Shown here one piece after another: positions 3,007 to 52,458 of a DNA stretch of 64,000 nucleotides. Position 1 is the stretch's first letter. Every line of letters starts with the position of its first letter. Below the pieces are notes generated by a model. The model did no database searches, had not been told where the DNA came from, and worked only from the letters and a program-made list of their open reading frames with translations. Made by a program: the position numbers and the translations under genes. Origin of the DNA: Elusimicrobia bacterium CG_4_9_14_3_um_filter_62_55 (GTDB lineage: Bacteria > Elusimicrobiota > Elusimicrobia > UBA1565); NCBI GenBank assembly GCA_002790095.1, contig PFUL01000194.1, positions 19,116 to 83,115 on the forward strand, in the 5' to 3' direction.

Positions 3007-4307
3007 AGCCGCCTCAGATTCCGGCGGGAAATACCGGCCGCCGCGTTGCGGGTATCGAAAACCATTTTCGCGTGCTTCAAAACACGAGAATAATCGACGG
3101 AGGCATGCGCCGTCAAGATCAGCGCCAAGTCGGAGCGTTTGATCGAGGCCGGCGTCAACGCCGCCGACCGCAGCACGGCGCCCTCGATCGACACGCGGGG
3201 GACGAACGGATCGTGGTAGCTCAGACGGGCGCCTTGGTCGAGAAGCAGCTTCATGACGTCGAGCGCGGGGGATTCGCGGATGTCCTTGACCCCGGGCTTG
3301 TAGGCGACGCCGAGAATGAGAATCCGGCTTGCGCGCACGGCCTTTCCCATCCCGTTTAAGAGTTCCGCGACCCGCCCCGCGACGTAGTCCGGCATCCGGC
3401 TGTTGGTGGCGCTCGCCAAGTCGATGAAGCGCGGCTCGAAATTGAGGGATTTCATCTTCCACGCCAAGTAGTTCGGATCGACCGGAATGCAATGCCCTCC
3501 GAGCCCGGGACCCGGATAGAACGGCATGAATCCGAACGGCTTGGTCTTCGCCGCGTCGATGATCTCCCACACGTCGACCCCGAGGCGGTGGCACATCCGC
3601 GCGATTTCGTTGACCATCGCGATATTGACCGCGCGAAACGTATTTTCGAGAAGCTTGACCATCTCAGCGGAATCCGCGCTGGAAACTTCGATCACACTGT
3701 CGACGATTTCGCCGTAGAGTTCCGCGGCAAGCGCCCCGCAGGCGGGGGTGACGCCCCCGACCACTTTCGGCGTATTCTCGATCCCGTAAGTCTTATTTCC
3801 CGGATCGACCCGCTCCGGAGAAAAGGCCAGATGAAAGTCGCGCCCGGCTTTCAGGCCTGAACCCTCGAAGACGGGCCGGACCATTTCCCGCGTTGTCCCC
3901 GGATAGGTCGTGCTTTCCAAGACGATCAACTGCCCCTTGCGCAGACGGCCCATGATCGCCTCGCAGGCCGCCAGGATAAAGGTTAAATCGGGGTCCTTGG
4001 TTTTGCGAAGAGGGGTTGGAACGCAGATAATGATCGCGTCGCACGCCGACAGCCTCGAAAATTGCGTCGTCGGCGCGAACCGTCCACCCGAAACGATTTC
4101 CCGGATTGTCGGGGAACTCACATCGGCAATGTGGCTGCGGCCGGACGCGAGCGCTTTCACTTTGGCGGCGTCGACATCGAACCCCACGACGCGAAATCCC
4201 TTTTGGGCGAAGGCGGCGGCGAGAGGCAGCCCGACATACCCGAGTCCGACGATACCGACGACGGCCTTCCGGGAGGCGATTTTCGCCGACAAACCCTTTT
4301 TTGACAT
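3003..4307 (-). CDS. Nucleotide-sugar (UDP-GlcNAc-type) 6-dehydrogenase, WecC/WbpA-like
   Basis: GLGYVGLPLAAAFA Rossmann motif, STTYPGTT, FSPERVDPGN, GLGGHCIPVDPNYL active-site segment. Confidence 0.88.
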   Translation of the reverse strand: MSKKGLSAKIASRKAVVGIVGLGYVGLPLAAAFAQKGFRVVGFDVDAAKVKALASGRSHIADVSSPTIREIVSGGRFAPTTQFSRLSACDAIIICVPTPLRKTKDPDLTFILAACEAIMGRLRKGQLIVLESTTYPGTTREMVRPVFEGSGLKAGRDFHLAFSPERVDPGNKTYGIENTPKVVGGVTPACGALAAELYGEIVDSVIEVSSADSAEMVKLLENTFRAVNIAMVNEIARMCHRLGVDVWEIIDAAKTKPFGFMPFYPGPGLGGHCIPVDPNYLAWKMKSLNFEPRFIDLASATNSRMPDYVAGRVAELLNGMGKAVRASRILILGVAYKPGVKDIRESPALDVMKLLLDQGARLSYHDPFVPRVSIEGAVLRSAALTPASIKRSDLALILTAHASVDYSRVLKHAKMVFDTRNAAAGISRRNLRRL

Positions 4308-4410: not shown

Positions 4411-5724
4411 ATGAAAAGTAAGAATATCTGCGTCGTCGGAACCGGGTACGTCGGCCTGGTAACCGGAGCCTGTCTCGCGGAACTCGGCCACCACGTGGTC
4501 TGCGTCGATTCCGACCGCACGAAAATCAAAACTCTAAAATCCGGAAAAATCCCGATCCACGAAAACGGCCTGCTCCCTCTGGTCAAAAAGAACACGAAGG
4601 CCAAGCGCCTGCATTTCGCCACCGCCATCGAGGAAGGCGTCAACTGGAGAGGGCGGCGCTCTGAAGTGGTCTTTATCGCGGTTGGAACCCCGCCGCGTCC
4701 CGACGGTTCCGCGGATCTATCGGCCGTCGAAGCGGTCGCGGCGGAGACGGCCCGAGTCATGAAGGACTACACGGTGATCGTGGACAAAAGCACCGTGCCG
4801 GTCGAAACCGGGGCATGGGTCGAAAAGACGGTCACGCGCGTGAACAAGCGCAAGGTCCCGTTCGACGTCGCTTCGAACCCCGAATTTCTCGCGGAAGGGA
4901 CGGCTGTCGACGATTTCCTCAACCCCGACCGGATCGTGATCGGCGTCTCCTCCCCCCGCGCCGAACGGACGCTGCGGGCGGTGTACGCGCCCATCGGCGC
5001 GCCGATACTCGTGACCGACGTCAAAAGCGCGGAACTCATCAAACACGCGTCGAACTCCTTTCTCGCGACCAAAATCTCCTTTATGAACGGCGTGAGCCGG
5101 ATCTGCGAGGCAGTCGGCGCCGACGTCACTATGGTCGCCAAGGGGATGGGCCTCGATAAGCGCATCGGCGCGAGCTTCCTGCGCGCCGGTCTCGGCTTCG
5201 GCGGGTTTTGCTTTCCCAAGGACCTGGAGGCCTTCTATAAGATCGCCTACGACAAGGGCGTCGAATTCAAACTGCTCAAAGAAGTGACGGAGATCAACCA
5301 AACCCAGCGCGATTGGGTCTTCCGCAAGGTCGAAGAAGAACTCTGGAACCTCAACGGAAAGAAAGTCGCGATCCTCGGCCTCGCCTTCAAACCGAACACG
5401 GACGATCTGCGCTTCGCTCCGAGCCTCAAGATCATCGAAAGACTCCAAAAACATAAGGTGAAAATCAGCGCGCACGACCCGGTCGCGATGCCCAAGGCTA
5501 AGCCCATACTCAAGAATGTCGCGTTCTCCAAAGACGCGTACGCGGCCGCGAAGGACGCGGATTGCGTCGTCCTCGTCACCGAATGGGACGAGTACAAAAA
5601 TCTGGACCTTAAGAAACTCGCCAGCGTCATGAAGAACGCGGTGATGCTCGACGGGAGAAATCTCTACGACCCGGAAACCGTGCGCGCGCTAGGATACACC
5701 TACCATTCGGTCGGCCGACCGTGA
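4411..5724 (+). CDS. ugd: UDP-glucose 6-dehydrogenase
   Basis: [64 protein letters not shown]. Confidence 0.92.
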
Positions 5725-6665
5725 GAAAAAAGAACTCCAGGATTCTGATCACCGGGGCCGCCGGATTCCTCGGCAGCCATCTCGCCGAGCGCTTCCTGGA
5801 ACGAGGCGCGCAGGTCATCGGCATCGACAACTTTATCACCGGCCGGGTCGAAAACATCGACCACCTTTTCAAGAACCCCTCCTTTCGCTTCATCCAAGCG
5901 GACGTCACAAACTTCATTCACGTCCCCGGGAAACTCGACGGCGTCCTGCATTTCGCGAGCCCCGCGAGCCCCATCGACTACGCGACCTATCCGATCCCCA
6001 CGCTGAAGGTCGGGGCCCTCGGAACTCATAAGGCCCTCGGGCTCGCGAAGGACAAGGGCGCTAAATTCATGCTGGCCTCAACGTCCGAATGCTACGGCGA
6101 CCCGCTCGTCAACCCTCAACCCGAAACCTACTGGGGGAACGTCAACCCGATCGGGCCCCGCGGCGTTTATGACGAAGCGAAGCGCTTTGCCGAAGCCCTG
6201 ACGATGGCCTACCACCGGTATCACAAGATGCAGGTCCGGATCGTAAGGATCTTCAATACCTACGGTCCGCGCATGCGCAAAAAAGACGGTCGAGCGGTTC
6301 CGAACTTCATCACGCAAGCCCTTAAAAACCGTCCCCTCACGGTTTACGGAAAGGGCCGTCAAACGCGAAGCCTCTGCTTCGTCTCCGATCTCATCGACGG
6401 CATTCTTCGCCTGTTCGACTCCGATCTCAACACCCCGGTCAACATCGGAAACCCCCGCGAGATGTCGATCCTTCAGATCGCGCGGGCGATCAAAAAGCAA
6501 ACGGGCTCGCGATCGCGCATCGTGCATAAGCCCCTGCCGGCCGACGACCCCCGGGTGCGCCGTCCGGACATCCGGATCGCGCGCACCAAGCTCGGATGGA
6601 CCCCGAAGGTGCCGCTTGAAGAAGGGCTGGCGCGCACCATCGACTACTTCCGGTCCGGGTGCTGA
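5721..6665 (+). CDS. UDP-glucuronate decarboxylase (UDP-xylose synthase) / NAD-dependent epimerase
   Basis: [39 protein letters not shown]...[23 protein letters not shown] overlap with ugd. Confidence 0.9.
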
Positions 6666-6870
6666 AGATGCGGGAGCGTCTTCGTGCCGGGCGCTCAGGC
6701 AGCGCGCAGTGCTGAAGATGCGGGAGCGTCTTCGTGCCGGGCGCTCAGGCAGCGCGCAGTGCTGAAGATGCGGGAGCGTCTTCGTGCCGGGCGCTCAGGC
6801 AGCGCGCAGTGCTGAAGATGCGGGAGCGTCTTCGTGCCGGGCGCTCAGGCAGCGCGCAGTGCTGAAGATG
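6659..6870. repeat. Perfect 50-bp tandem repeat: four units plus a partial fifth
   Basis: Unit gctgaagatgcgggagcgtcttcgtgccgggcgctcaggcagcgcgcagt at 6661-6710, 6711-6760, 6761-6810 and 6811-6860, then gctgaagatg (6861-6870). All four units are identical. Confidence 0.97.
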
Positions 6871-6872
6871 CA

Positions 6873-7565
6873 GTGCTGACCGCCCTCGTTCCCTGCCTCG
6901 ACGAAGCCGCGGGGCTTCCCCGGATCGAGCGGGAGCTTTTCCCGGCGCTCGACGCGCTCGACTGCGACTACGAAGTCCTGTTGATCGATGACGGATCCTC
7001 AGACGCGACGCCGTCGCTCCTGAAAGAGATGCGATCCCGCCGGCCCAATCTTCGATCGATCCGCCACGAGAAAACCCTCGGAATCGGCGGGTCTCTGAAA
7101 ACCGGCATCCGCGAGGCCCGGGGAGAATGGCTGGTCTTTCTGGACGCCGATCTCACCTTTTCCCCCCGCGACATCAAAACCCTGCTGCTCCGGCAATTGG
7201 AGACCGGCGCCGACTGTGTTTCGGGGTCTCCGATGCTCGGCGGGATGCCGGGAGTCCCTTTCGCCCGCCGCCTGCCGAGCCTGCTGCTCAACACCCTCTA
7301 CCGCGGCCTGCTGGACCGCCGCTTTACCGCGTTCACGCCGATGTTCCGGCTCTACCGGGTCTCGGACCTGCGCGACCTGCGCATTCGCAGCGACGGCTTC
7401 GAAGTCTCGGTCGAGATTCTCGCTCGCCTCCTGCGCGCGGGAAAAGCCGTCGTGGAAGCTCCGACCCCCTTAAGCGTCCGGGAAACAGGCTCCTCAAAGC
7501 TCCGACGGGGACGGGAACTCCTCGCTCACGCCCGCCTGGCGTGGTTCCTTCTGGTAAACCGCTGA
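6873..7565 (+). CDS. Family 2 glycosyltransferase (dolichol-phosphate mannosyltransferase-like)
   Basis: LTALVPCLDEAAGLPRIERELFP, LLIDDGSSDATPSLL, GEWLVFLDADLTF. GTG at 6873 taken as start; the ORF-track start at 6834 lies inside the repeat. Confidence 0.85.
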   Translation: MLTALVPCLDEAAGLPRIERELFPALDALDCDYEVLLIDDGSSDATPSLLKEMRSRRPNLRSIRHEKTLGIGGSLKTGIREARGEWLVFLDADLTFSPRDIKTLLLRQLETGADCVSGSPMLGGMPGVPFARRLPSLLLNTLYRGLLDRRFTAFTPMFRLYRVSDLRDLRIRSDGFEVSVEILARLLRAGKAVVEAPTPLSVRETGSSKLRRGRELLAHARLAWFLLVNR

Positions 7566-16044: not shown

Positions 16045-17352
16045 ATGATCAAAAAAATCTTCTCGACCGCCGCAGCCATCGCTCTTTTCTCGACCCAAAA
16101 CGCGTTCGCCCAAGGCGCCGCTCAGCAGTTGACCTCGATCGGCGCGGCGGGCGCCGTCGCCGGCCGCGTCACCGCGCTTGCGCCGACCGAGGGAGCGATC
16201 GGCCGCGTCCTCTCTTCGGGCAAGGAGGTCTACTTCAAGGACACGATCGCGACCGGGGCTCGAGGACGGCTTCAGATCATGCTCGCCGATCAGACGGTGT
16301 TCACCATCGGACCGGATTCGGAAATGCTGATCGATGAGTTCGTCTACGACCCCTTCACGGATACCGGCAAGGTCGCCGCGCAGGTCACCAAAGGCGTCTT
16401 CCGCTTCGTCACCGGGAAGATCGCCCGCAAGAAGCCCTCGGCGATGAACGTCAAGCTCCCGAACGGGACGATCGGAATCCGCGGCACGCTGGCCGCCGGG
16501 AAAATCAACGCGGACGGGTCCAGCATCGTCGCGCTGCTGGGGCCCGGAACCGGCAACACCGCCGGTGAGCGGCCGGGGTCCGTGGATATCACCAACGCCG
16601 GAGAAACGGTAACCTTGCTGCGGCCGGGATTCGCCACGATCATCCGGCCCGGGGCGCCTCCCACGCCTCCGTTTCAACTCTCCCCCGATCAAATGGCGCA
16701 GCTGGAACTTAAGCCGGCGGCGGAGGCCGGCGGCGGAGATCCGGACAAATCCCAAGACGACGCGAAGCGCGTCGGTCAGCTCGGCGAGACGAAGAAAGTC
16801 TCGACTATCGTCGGCGGCGAAGGAGAGGAAACCCGCAAACAAAACGATATTATCGGGTTCGCCATCCAAGAGGTCGACTTCGACGATCCCAACATCATCA
16901 ACTGGGACGCCTTCCGGGCGGCCGCGCCGACCTCCAGCAACGCGACCTATTCCGGAAACGGGACCTACACCTGCACCGGCGGCGTCTGCGGGGCGAGCGG
17001 CAGCGGCGACTGGACCGCGCACTTCGAAGTCGACTGGGTCAACAAGACGGTCGGCGGCGGCGGGACGAATTCCCATGTCGCCTTCCAGGTCAGCACGGGC
17101 GGCCCCCTCTGCCCGAGCGGCTGTTCGTCCGAATACGGCTCCAACATCGACCTCACCAACTTCTCCCAGTTGGGAGGGGACGCCCAGCTGATCCAAGGCC
17201 AGCATTACGCCGGGACGAACTCGGAATTCAACGGCTCGGGGCTGCAGTTCAACAACCAGCCGAATACCTTCACCGGAATTCTGAAATACGTCGGCCAAGG
17301 ATCGAGCGCGGATTCGACGTTGACCGGCAGCTGCTCCGGCACCTGTCCGTAA
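16045..17352 (+). CDS. Secreted FecR-domain protein (copy 1)
   Basis: Signal peptide; FecR core GRLQIMLADQTVFTIGPDSEMLIDEFVYDP...VRFVTGK-type segment...GTIGIRGT. Confidence 0.85.
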   Translation: MIKKIFSTAAAIALFSTQNAFAQGAAQQLTSIGAAGAVAGRVTALAPTEGAIGRVLSSGKEVYFKDTIATGARGRLQIMLADQTVFTIGPDSEMLIDEFVYDPFTDTGKVAAQVTKGVFRFVTGKIARKKPSAMNVKLPNGTIGIRGTLAAGKINADGSSIVALLGPGTGNTAGERPGSVDITNAGETVTLLRPGFATIIRPGAPPTPPFQLSPDQMAQLELKPAAEAGGGDPDKSQDDAKRVGQLGETKKVSTIVGGEGEETRKQNDIIGFAIQEVDFDDPNIINWDAFRAAAPTSSNATYSGNGTYTCTGGVCGASGSGDWTAHFEVDWVNKTVGGGGTNSHVAFQVSTGGPLCPSGCSSEYGSNIDLTNFSQLGGDAQLIQGQHYAGTNSEFNGSGLQFNNQPNTFTGILKYVGQGSSADSTLTGSCSGTCP

Positions 17353-17406: not shown

Positions 17407-18692
17407 CTCTTCTCATCAGCGTTTTCCCCCGCGCCGAGGCGGCTCTCACTCAGATCGGAGCCGCCGCAGCCGTCCATGGAACCGTCTCGGCCTTGGCGCC
17501 CGAAGCCGGGCAGAAGAAGCGCGCGCTGCTCAGCGGCAAGACCGTCTACTTCAAGGACTCGGTCACGACGGGCCCGGGGGCGAAGCTGCAGATCATGCTG
17601 CTGGACCAAACGGTGTTCACGCTCGGTCCCGATTCCGAGATGAGCCTGGACGAGTTCGTCTACGACCCCTTCACCGATACCGGCAAGGTCGCCGCGCAGG
17701 TCACCAAGGGCGTCTTCCGCTTCGTGACCGGGAAGATCGCGCGCAAGAAGCCCTCGGCGATGAAGGTCAAACTTCCATCGGGAACCATGGGAATCCGCGG
17801 AACCATCGCCGGAGGATCGATTCTTCCCGACGGCTCCGTGCTCTTGGCGCTGCTCGGCCCCGGCGCCGACAACAACGCGGGCGAACGTCCCGGCGCCATC
17901 GACGTCACCAACGCCGGAGTCACCGTCTCGGTCAACCGCCCCGGCTTCGCGGTCATCGTCCGGCCGGGGCAGCCGCCCAGCCCCCCGTTTCAGATGACGC
18001 CGGAACAGCTCGCCCAGCTCGATACGAAGCCGAAGGCCGAGGCCGGCGCCGGCGCCGGCGAGCCCAAGGGCGCGCAGCAAGACGCCAAACAGACTGGAGA
18101 TCTCGGCAACGCGAAAACGATCGCCGCCGCCGTCGGCGCGACCGTCGAGGAAAGCAACAACACCTCCGAGAACGCCGCGCAGGCGGCTCAAGACTTCGAC
18201 GGGATCGTCGATGGCCAGGCCACTTGGGGCAACGCGCGGGCCGTGGACCTGACTCCGATTCCCGACGGAAAAGCCCACTACTTTTACAACGGTCCGGGCT
18301 TCAACCTGACCCTCTGCGGCGGTGCCCAGTGCGCCGGGGACGGAAGCGCCGGAAACGCCAACTTCACGATGAACATCGATTTCAAAAACTACACCTTCGG
18401 AGGCGGAAACTCGTTTTTCTCGGTTTCAGACGACGACACGATCAATTCGACTTCGATCAGCGATACGCTCACGATCTCACAAGGAAGTTTCGCGTCCTTA
18501 AGCGGACCGGCGACGATATCCGCGACGGGAACGAACTCCACCGCTCAAATCGCCCTGCAGAACTCGGGCGGAAATCCCGCGACCTCCGCGCGGGTCAGCA
18601 TCAGCTTCAGCCAAGGATCCGCGCCGAGCCAGACGACGGGTTCGGGAACCATCACCGCCCCCAGATTCAACGGGGCGGCGCTCGGGCAGTAA
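17388..18692 (+). CDS. Secreted FecR-domain protein (copy 2)
   Basis: FecR core nearly identical to copy 1 (DEFVYDPFTDTGKVAAQVTKGVFRFVTGKIARKKPSAMKVKLPSGTMGIRGT). Confidence 0.83.
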   Translation: MGPILFSLLISVFPRAEAALTQIGAAAAVHGTVSALAPEAGQKKRALLSGKTVYFKDSVTTGPGAKLQIMLLDQTVFTLGPDSEMSLDEFVYDPFTDTGKVAAQVTKGVFRFVTGKIARKKPSAMKVKLPSGTMGIRGTIAGGSILPDGSVLLALLGPGADNNAGERPGAIDVTNAGVTVSVNRPGFAVIVRPGQPPSPPFQMTPEQLAQLDTKPKAEAGAGAGEPKGAQQDAKQTGDLGNAKTIAAAVGATVEESNNTSENAAQAAQDFDGIVDGQATWGNARAVDLTPIPDGKAHYFYNGPGFNLTLCGGAQCAGDGSAGNANFTMNIDFKNYTFGGGNSFFSVSDDDTINSTSISDTLTISQGSFASLSGPATISATGTNSTAQIALQNSGGNPATSARVSISFSQGSAPSQTTGSGTITAPRFNGAALGQ

Positions 18693-50368: not shown

Positions 50369-50563
50369 TTAAGAGTCCGAATCGTCTTTCTTGCCCGACT
50401 CGGGCTTCTTGGACTCTTCAATCGGTTCTTTCATCCCCGCCTTGAAGGAGTTAATGGCCTTTCCGAACGCGCGCGCAATTTCAGGGACCTGTTTGGCGCC
50501 GAAAATAAGCAGTCCGAGCGCCAAAATTATCAGCAGTTCGCCGGTTCCGATATTAGGAAGCAT
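50369..50563 (-). CDS. tatA: Twin-arginine translocase TatA/TatE subunit
   Basis: IGTGELLIILALGLLIFGAKQVPEIARAFGKAINSFKAG. Confidence 0.92.
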   Translation of the reverse strand: MLPNIGTGELLIILALGLLIFGAKQVPEIARAFGKAINSFKAGMKEPIEESKKPESGKKDDSDS

Positions 50564-50576
50564 AGGCTCCGATTAT

Positions 50577-50631
50577 AGCACTGCGCGCTGACCGAGCGCC
50601 CAGCACAGCGGCGCTTCCGCGCCGCTAGCAC
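50577..50631. repeat. Single diverged copy (inverse orientation) of the 55-nt two-hairpin element amplified at 6.66 kb
   Basis: agcac-tgcgcgctgaccgagcgcc-cagcac-agcggcgcttccgcgccgct-agcac aligns without gaps to the reverse complement of the 6.66-kb unit (42/55 identical by hand count). Confidence 0.85.
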
Positions 50632-50663: not shown

Positions 50664-51509
50664 ATGCGCCGCTCGACTCCCGTTTTCACCGCTCTCCTGC
50701 TCGCCGTGAATGCCGGAGCGTTCGAAATCACGCTGACGCCTCCACAGCCGCTCCCTGGAGACGTTTTGGCGGTGGAAGTGGTGGGGATCGACAATCCCCG
50801 CCGCGCGGAGCTCGTATTCCGCAATGAAACCTACCCTTTCTACGCGATCGCGCCGGGCCGCATGCGCGCCCTGATCGGTCTCACGGCGCGGGACAAGATC
50901 CGCTGGGAGGGCCTGCGCGTCGTCCGGAAACGATTCCTGCTCCCCGACGAGGTCAAAACGGTCGGAATCGAGCTGCAAAAACGGACCTTTTCCCACCAAA
51001 GCCTTCGCATGCCGGCGTCGAAGGCCGCGTTGCCCCAGAAACCCGAAGCCCGCACGGCCATCAACCACATCCGCGAAGCCCTCAGCAAGGACTCCCCCCG
51101 CCAGCGCTGGGAAGGGGCCTTCCTGCGTCCGGCAAAAGGGCGGCGCAGTTCCAAGTACGGCCACACTCGCACCATCAACGGGGCGATGGCCTGGGATTGG
51201 CACAAGGGCATCGACATCGCCGCCGGGGACGGGCAGCCTGTCCTTTCTCCCAACAGCGGACGCGTCGTCCTGACGGGCCGCTTTCCCGTGCAGGGCGGGA
51301 CCGTCATCGTCGACCACGGACAGGGACTGATGAGCGCGTTTTTACACCTGCAGTCGTTCGAGGTGAAAATCGGAGACGAAGTCTCCAAAGGCCAACGCAT
51401 CGCCGCCGTCGGAGGCGGCGGATTCTCCACCGGGTCCCATTTGCATTGGGGCGTCTACGTGCACGGCGCGGCCGTCGACCCGGAACCGCTGCTCGACCGG
51501 CCCCTCTGA
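50664..51509 (+). CDS. M23 family metallopeptidase (LytM-type)
   Basis: WHKGIDIAAGDGQPVLSPNSGRVV, VIVDHGQGLMSAFLHL, GSHLHWGVYVHG. Confidence 0.92.
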   Translation: MRRSTPVFTALLLAVNAGAFEITLTPPQPLPGDVLAVEVVGIDNPRRAELVFRNETYPFYAIAPGRMRALIGLTARDKIRWEGLRVVRKRFLLPDEVKTVGIELQKRTFSHQSLRMPASKAALPQKPEARTAINHIREALSKDSPRQRWEGAFLRPAKGRRSSKYGHTRTINGAMAWDWHKGIDIAAGDGQPVLSPNSGRVVLTGRFPVQGGTVIVDHGQGLMSAFLHLQSFEVKIGDEVSKGQRIAAVGGGGFSTGSHLHWGVYVHGAAVDPEPLLDRPL

Positions 51510-51531: not shown

Positions 51532-52458
51532 CTAGTACTCGCTAAGCCGGCAACACAAGATACGTCCGGACGTCGGAAGAACTTGCACCTCGCATGATGG
51601 GTTAGCCTGGCCGGGAAGATAACAGTTAATCCCTGCGCTATTAACCACTTTGACATTATTCTGAATGTTCCCGGCGTAAGTCGACGCGGCGAATACCCCC
51701 CATTTCACAGGGCAGAAGCGCTGAGTTCCCACCGAGTACGGATACCAGCGGCAGGCGTTGGAGATCGTCCGCCCCAAGAGGATATAGCTGTCGTCCTGAA
51801 TGCGGATATGCTCCCGGGCGTTGTTGCGCACGATCATCGCGTAGCGGCCGGCGCTGTCCCCACCCCCGGTGTGGATGTAGGCGCCGTATCCACCACCGTG
51901 AGCGAAATACACATTGGCGCTTCCCTTCTGAATCCGCATCGCCCAGTTCGCGCCTCCCTTATTCACATGGATGTCGTGCGAGGGGTTCGTCATGCCGATC
52001 CCCAGAGCGCCGCCGGTCGTGTAGATATTCCCGATCGCCCGAACATAGGAACCGGACTGCACGTAGGTTCCGGCGGTGACCGCCTGCCCGGCCGTTACAT
52101 TCGTTCCCGCGGAGACCGCTTGGGCGGCCGATACGTTCGTCCCGGCGGCGACGGCTTGAGCTGCGGTGAGATTGGTCGCGTAGGCGTTTCCGTTTACCTG
52201 GAGTTTATTACTGCAGCTCGTTGAACCGATGCAGGTGTTGCCCCCCGTGTAGGAGAGGTAGGTGTTCTGCGTCGATCGGAGTTCCTCGTAGACGCCGTAG
52301 GGGGAAGGGTAGTAGGTCGTCAGCGTCAACTGCTCGGTAACCAGGTCGCCGGGCGTGAAGCAGATCAAGCCGAGCGTCAGAAGCGCGACGAACTGCCGCC
52401 GCCCGAACTCCAAACGGATCGTCACCGTTCTGCCTCCGTTTTTCTCGTCTACGCTCAT
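51532..52458 (-). CDS. Secreted protein with 12-aa repeats, associated with prepilins
   Basis: Signal/anchor, LTLTTYYPSPYGVYEELRSTQN, repeats AAQAVAAGTNVS/AAQAVSAGTNVT/AGQAVTAGTYVQ. Confidence 0.7.
   Translation of the reverse strand: MSVDEKNGGRTVTIRLEFGRRQFVALLTLGLICFTPGDLVTEQLTLTTYYPSPYGVYEELRSTQNTYLSYTGGNTCIGSTSCSNKLQVNGNAYATNLTAAQAVAAGTNVSAAQAVSAGTNVTAGQAVTAGTYVQSGSYVRAIGNIYTTGGALGIGMTNPSHDIHVNKGGANWAMRIQKGSANVYFAHGGGYGAYIHTGGGDSAGRYAMIVRNNAREHIRIQDDSYILLGRTISNACRWYPYSVGTQRFCPVKWGVFAASTYAGNIQNNVKVVNSAGINCYLPGQANPSCEVQVLPTSGRILCCRLSEY

Follow-up and report, generated by a model that had tools for sequence, protein, structure and literature searches.

Mobile, REP-like double-hairpin elements at gene ends in Elusimicrobia

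What is the short double hairpin at positions 50577-50631 of the window, the 64-kb stretch analyzed here, and why does it recur in inverted orientation as a tandem array? The window belongs to a 4.31-Mb assembly that we label G000, its relatives being labeled G001 and so on. The gap-free alignment described by the first-pass annotation is confirmed: the single copy matches, in reverse complement, each of the array units (6659-6713, 6709-6763, 6759-6813, and 6809-6863) at 76-77% identity, and no inverted repeats of the window rank higher. Other parts of that description need adjustment. Hairpin 1 is present and is longer than had been drawn (table 1), and hairpin 2 of the array, presented as an 8-bp stem, comprises seven Watson-Crick pairs and an eighth position that is A.C on the minus strand and a G.U/G.T wobble when read on the plus strand. 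The repetition of AGCAC at the borders arises partly at the junctions: the insert itself, 50 nt long, reads CAC-H1-GCAC-H2-CTAG, and the target flanks supply the other AG and CAC. The AG of AGCAC is thus part of the insertion-site motif, and GCAC (GTGC on the folded strand) is the hairpin foot. At the gathering threshold, Rfam matched two tRNAs only in the window and gave no match for the element, and a known RNA family was rejected on these grounds.

Table 1. Positions of the two F1 occurrences in the window, their parts, and the genes beside them
Feature	Position	Strand	Evidence
F1 element, single copy, 50 nt	50579..50628	minus (putative functional strand, 5'-CTAG-H2-GTGC-H1-GTG-3')	CM match 84 bits; site empty in G001, reading TATAGCACCCC
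Hairpin H1: 8 pair positions, 5-nt loop, one C.C mismatch	50582..50602	-	Fold; covariation across loci
GCAC (GTGC on folded strand) between H1 and H2	50603..50606	-	Invariant in F1 alignment A2 and F2 seed alignment A4
Hairpin H2: 8 bp, 4-nt loop GGAA on minus strand	50607..50626	-	Fold; both-side changes at 7/8 pairs across loci; G-N(-N)-A loops
Insertion-site sequence ATTATAG	50572..50578		Identical at empty site of G001
tatA-like gene left of single element	50369..50563	-	Pfam PF02416
M23 peptidase gene right of single element	50664..51509	+	Pfam PF01551
F1 array, 4.3 units of 50 nt	6659..6871	+ (folded strand)	TRF (period 50, 100% identical); CM matches 74.3 bits
NAD-dependent epimerase/dehydratase gene, ending within first array unit	5721..6665	+	Pfam PF01370/PF16363
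Glycosyltransferase family 2 gene 3' of array	6873..7565	+	Pfam PF00535 on longer reading 6834-7565; start 6873 from codon-usage calling
Second copy of GTGCTGA after array	6873..6879	+	G001: the two genes overlap at a single GTGTTAA, no insert

On the minus strand, the insertion-site sequence of the single copy becomes CTATAAT and adjoins the tatA start, from which we infer that it may act as a TATAAT-like -10 box of a promoter. The window also holds a 36-nt tandem repeat (52067-52152, 2.4 copies) that encodes a 12-residue repeat (AAQAVAAGTNVS-like) within a gene for a predicted secreted protein without a Pfam match (51532-52458). Two 277-nt stretches in consecutive genes (16219-16495 and 17535-17811) are 81% identical and lie 1316 nt apart; they are probably parts of paralogous genes.

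The first-pass annotation had staked its reading on further copies in the genome, and these were found. A covariance model (CM) built from six loci defines a family, F1, with 22 strong matches in G000 (E 2.5e-17 to 1.1e-7), four in G005 (a sister genus), and one in G001 (the same genus). Weaker matches of this model led to a second family, F2, of 57-59 nt. The module GCAC-H2-YYAG is common to both families, and the left hairpin of F2 (H1') is different, with a stem of about 7 bp (GCCGGxx) and a loop of about 20 nt containing ATARCCCC. With the best 100-150 candidates scored per genome, so that match counts for the families are lower bounds, F2 has at least 50 matches in G000, 29 in G015, 22 in G005, 10 in G009, five in G002, and three in G011, and none among the candidates from 14 other genomes, including G001, G003, G004, G006, and G007. 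When 84,980 species, each represented by one genome, were searched for the exact F2 pattern, Elusimicrobia records alone matched, and no match was found in viral contigs. A pattern for the hairpin-2 module of F2 gave 40 matches against 0 for its reversed control, which together with the genome-wide matches rules out chance similarity. The copies are dispersed, hairpin-forming, and mainly non-coding (61 of 94 loci lie outside called genes), and members of both families also form head-to-tail arrays without spacers.

One F1 array (G000:C12:33572-33711; L033, L045) contains a run of N, that is, a scaffold gap; short-read assembly therefore probably collapses or breaks such arrays, and their lengths are uncertain. 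Another (G000:C185:56138-56292; L040, L043) carries F2-type H2 arms (AGCGGGGC...GCCCCGCT), which suggests module exchange between the families or shared selection on H2. At L069 (G000:C121:59900-63000), one long ORF of tandem carrier-protein-like repeats contains, in frame, three tandem 57-nt F2 units plus a fourth that stands alone, each unit adding about 19 residues (ERLIAPMKPGTAGLPPRQ-like); in-frame inserts of this kind occur at about 30 F2 loci.

Sibling genomes preserve the alleles without the insert. At the site of the single copy, G001 carries TATAGCACCCCAGACATGGGCTATGATATCC between the same two genes, and the window is longer by exactly 50 nt (50579-50628). At the array site, the same epimerase and glycosyltransferase genes of G001 overlap stop to start at GTGTTAA, whereas in the window an insertion of 214 nt separates two GTGCTGA copies, the first of which (6659-6665) contains the TGA stop of the epimerase; the glycosyltransferase probably starts at the GTG at 6873. 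Orthologs of 18 further loci were sought in sibling genomes, and 17 have at least one element-free sibling, the eighteenth (L067) running into a contig end. In these siblings, the neighboring gene terminates at an identical or almost identical codon position, with a native TAG, TGA, or TAA stop, usually preceded by C, and at the occupied loci the stop is formed by the end of the element. The cleanest case is L157, where siblings read GGCTACTGA and the occupied locus reads GGCTA[CTAG...GGCC]TGA; comparison with L188 and L193 places the insertion 3' of a tetranucleotide, without target duplication and with the end motif in the element. Given filled and empty alleles at both window sites and at 17 of the 18 further loci, we conclude from sequence comparison that the elements of F1 and F2 are mobile. 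The stop codon of an acyl-CoA dehydrogenase gene is occupied in both G001 and G005 and empty in G000, G002, G003, G007, and G009. Two independent insertions at this codon would take fewer steps than an ancestral gain followed by repeated losses, which may nevertheless have occurred.

The proposal that structure rather than sequence is kept holds strongly for both families. Among the F1 loci, 91% of cells are paired and 45 are changed on both sides, against 24-48% paired in slid controls; for F2 the corresponding values are 97%, 103, and 32-49%. Both alignments were fitted to the models and hence lean towards them, and MAFFT seed alignments, for which the structure was specified manually, agree with them. 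Read forward, the two families together show 33 A.C and 7 G.T mismatches, counted over rows that are related by descent and are not independent events, an excess of A.C that places the wobbles on the opposite strand. There, the H2 loops of 94 of 104 rows, again related by descent, open with G and close with A, the commonest being GGA, GGAA, and GGCA. G-N-A loops are known from very stable DNA mini-hairpins, according to Yoshizawa 1997 as cited in PMC6479982. From the G.T wobbles and the G-N(-N)-A loops together, the folded strand is probably 5'-CT^AG-H2-GTGC-H1-^CT, the reverse complement of the orientation first proposed. In F2, the loop motif ATARCCCC of H1' (e.g., L107, L149) is complementary to the GGGGC arm of H2 and might form an alternative fold or pseudoknot; variant L091, whose H2 arm is GGGAC, retains CCCC and hence shows no covariation with this loop.

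The junctions point to a preferred target. Read on the folded strand, 85 of 93 loci have CT at their 5' junction and 56 of 93 have it at their 3' junction, each against a background of 5.4%. The junction sequences carrying CT are CTAG or CTRR, and the 4-mer flanking F2 on the left is CTAG at 23 of 74 loci, against 0.065% in the background. In F2, the bases of the right end pair within H2 and covary with it and the left flank varies independently, so the repeated junction motif appears to be no target duplication longer than the shared AG. According to gene calls from a codon-usage caller, 41 of 94 loci coincide exactly with a stop codon and preserve it, and at 35 of these 41 H2 directly follows the stop in the mRNA. 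Among YYAG sites that are non-coding or stops, stop codons are enriched (odds ratio 6.2, p 9e-11); some of this excess can come from selection against insertions elsewhere. Taken alone, ends that supply stops are not a new trait, since GTAG REP ends often supply TAG stops to neighboring genes (PMC3733652). Element orientation did not correlate with GC skew (49 of 94 loci), and no replication-strand bias was seen.

The RAYT/TnpA-REP-like Y1 gene whose presence had been anticipated does occur in the genome, but no such gene is flanked by elements. Six Y1 genes are the only HUH-type genes found in G000; the three of them that were compared with the REP-associated tyrosine transposase model NF047646 score 44-76 bits, just under or below its cut-off of 80, and the Y1 proteins that were read have the length of RAYTs (about 270-325 aa) and not that of the short IS200 TnpA. 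None of about 54 Y1/RAYT-class genes, six in G000 and 48 in 11 relatives, is flanked by an element (36 loci scanned with the F1 and F2 models, the remainder by contig coordinates), and a RAYT acting in cis was rejected on this basis across the 12 genomes. In G005, where an element comes closest to a Y1 gene, the two are 1.5 kb apart and separated by another gene. Y1 genes occur in every genome tested for them, those without elements included, and a quick RAYT tree, indicative only as several proteins were read on the wrong strand, places one clade in element-positive and element-negative genomes. A TnpB domain was found in none of seven genomes, an IS91-type Y2 transposase is absent from G000, G002, and G005, all of which bear elements, and none of the Y2 loci of G009 and G015 has an F2 copy; both enzymes were rejected as mobilizers because they are missing where needed. 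An all-against-all comparison of 714 flanking ORFs revealed no shared gene family beside the elements, and a common adjoining transposase was rejected accordingly; G000 likewise yielded no solitary H2 ends that would mark an autonomous parent. Near one Y1 gene (L064, G000:C156:1200-5907), an A+T-rich imperfect inverted repeat of 31 nt at 3186-3254 is unlike F1 and F2 and is possibly the end of that transposase's own element.

TnpA(REP) recognizes a foot tetranucleotide and hairpin and cuts C^T on either side (PMC8266576). Read as above, the folded strand has the parts of such a substrate, namely a foot tetranucleotide, a hairpin, and C^T on both sides. With confidence and doubt evenly balanced, we favor the hypothesis that F1 and F2 are REP-like miniature non-autonomous elements that are moved in trans as folded single-stranded DNA, and we infer that the mobilizer is an HUH/Y1 enzyme, most likely a RAYT-class Y1 protein, which would cut and rejoin the strand at CT. 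As the element carries CTAG, its own target motif, at one end, insertion would make a new target at its edge, and tandem arrays could start from this target; that the units of an array are identical suggests that slippage or unequal recombination followed. C followed by TAG, TGA, or TAA matches the target motif, and because the CTAG of the element restores the stop, the protein would stay intact and the insert would survive. Against this hypothesis, the foot is GTGC and not GT[AG]G; no correlation with GC skew was seen, though a lagging-strand mechanism would tend to give one; and the Y1 genes are unflanked and also occur in element-free genomes.

A tentative and somewhat unlikely reading of the same loci is that of lineage-specific single-stranded DNA elements of about 50 nt that colonize gene ends and leave the protein unchanged, the target being C before any stop and the CTAG being self-supplied; they would be moved by an unrecognized enzyme or by a RAYT-class protein wholly in trans.

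We consider it unlikely that the elements are terminal-only derivatives of IS200/IS605 (PATE-like), in which left-end and right-end hairpins are fused. The active strand would then be that of the first-pass annotation, YYAG^CAC-H1-GCAC-H2-CTAG, with GCAC as the guide at each hairpin foot, YYAG as the target, and the last four bases as the right-end cleavage site. F1 does have the same tetranucleotide at both feet and YYAG at both cleavage positions, insertion is 3' of a tetranucleotide without target duplication, the hairpins are direct and not inverted, and terminal-only PATEs of 52 bp exist in Haloquadratum (PMC3119063). However, the wobbles and the loop type indicate the other strand, F2 lacks GCAC at its left foot, the seven genomes have no TnpB domain, and the Y1 proteins are not of the short IS200 type.

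An enzyme unrelated to HUH/Y1, such as one of IS110 type or another site-specific recombinase, might instead carry out strand exchange at a CT/AG core of two bases, and the hairpins would then have some other role. CT at both junctions without a longer target duplication fits any such mechanism, as does the lack of a cis link between elements and Y1 genes, but no gene family recurs beside the elements, and conserved hairpins with a foot tetranucleotide are a hallmark of HUH substrates and not of core-exchange enzymes. We regard the proposal as improbable.

It is also quite improbable that the elements are primarily functional RNAs of mRNA 3' ends, that is, stabilizing or terminating hairpins selected at stop codons, with mobility secondary. 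The 41 loci on stop codons, 35 of them with H2 next to the stop, are in keeping with such a role, the wobbles and loops lie on that same strand, and in E. coli both translation and mRNA stability are influenced by REPs close to stop codons (PMC12306157). Yet the elements are patchy, being absent from orthologous sites of siblings and from whole genomes, many copies sit within reading frames or in the opposite orientation, and the loops are the triloop GGA in 38 of 83 F2 cases and of GNRA type in only 33 of 104 rows. Nor do the elements fit a MITE of a DDE transposon, as the termini GGCCGG...CTAG are not inverted repeats and the 4-mers on the two sides vary independently of each other.

It is rare to catch REP-like repeats in the act of moving. 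Here, the empty and filled alleles of siblings delimit the insert to the single base and hint at the strand that folds, and one stop codon is occupied in two genera with empty siblings. Such alleles exemplify how hairpins can accumulate at gene ends without damage, and a concrete cleavage test is now possible for RAYT-class proteins without known substrate. In the literature searched, we found no earlier report of such repeats in Elusimicrobiota.

How, then, do F1 and F2 compare with known systems? IS91 and Helitrons are HUH rolling-circle elements with a hairpin near a CTRR terminus and no target duplication, but an IS91-type Y2 transposase is missing from three element-bearing genomes, as noted above. 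The likeness to REP/BIME elements suggested at first applies to REPs and does not extend to the inverted doublets of BIMEs or REPINs, since the units here are direct and head-to-tail. REPINs and BIMEs are likewise mobile units of two hairpins, sometimes iterated, yet they are inverted copies of one REP, whereas H1 and H2 differ, are direct, and in F1 are each preceded by GCAC. The terminal-only PATEs of IS605-type transposons in Haloquadratum resemble our elements in their length of about 50 bp, their two near-terminal palindromes, and the absence of inverted termini and of target duplication (PMC3119063), but their genomes also contain the IS605-type parents to which they are linked, and no parent or TnpB was found here. 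CGTC REPs, which include RPE-4 and RPE-6 of Rickettsia, are also REP-like, sometimes inside reading frames, and without a dedicated adjoining transposase (PMC3733652); they differ in being mostly head-to-head dimers and in their terminal CGTC, the ends here being CTAG or CTRR and GTG or GGC. Most REP families have few or no head-to-tail dimers (PMC3733652). With GTAG REPs and REPtrons (RAYT, TnpA-REP), F1 and F2 share short hairpins, a foot tetranucleotide, C^T junctions, dispersed intergenic copies, and TAG-supplying ends (PMC3733652; PMC8266576), although both families have GTGC/GCAC at the foot in place of GT[AG]G, their two hairpins are unlike and in direct order, and no RAYT gene is flanked by copies. 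Failing the defining tests of GTAG REP, CGTC REP, REPIN/BIME, and PATE, they are best filed as a new variant among REP-like miniature mobile elements.
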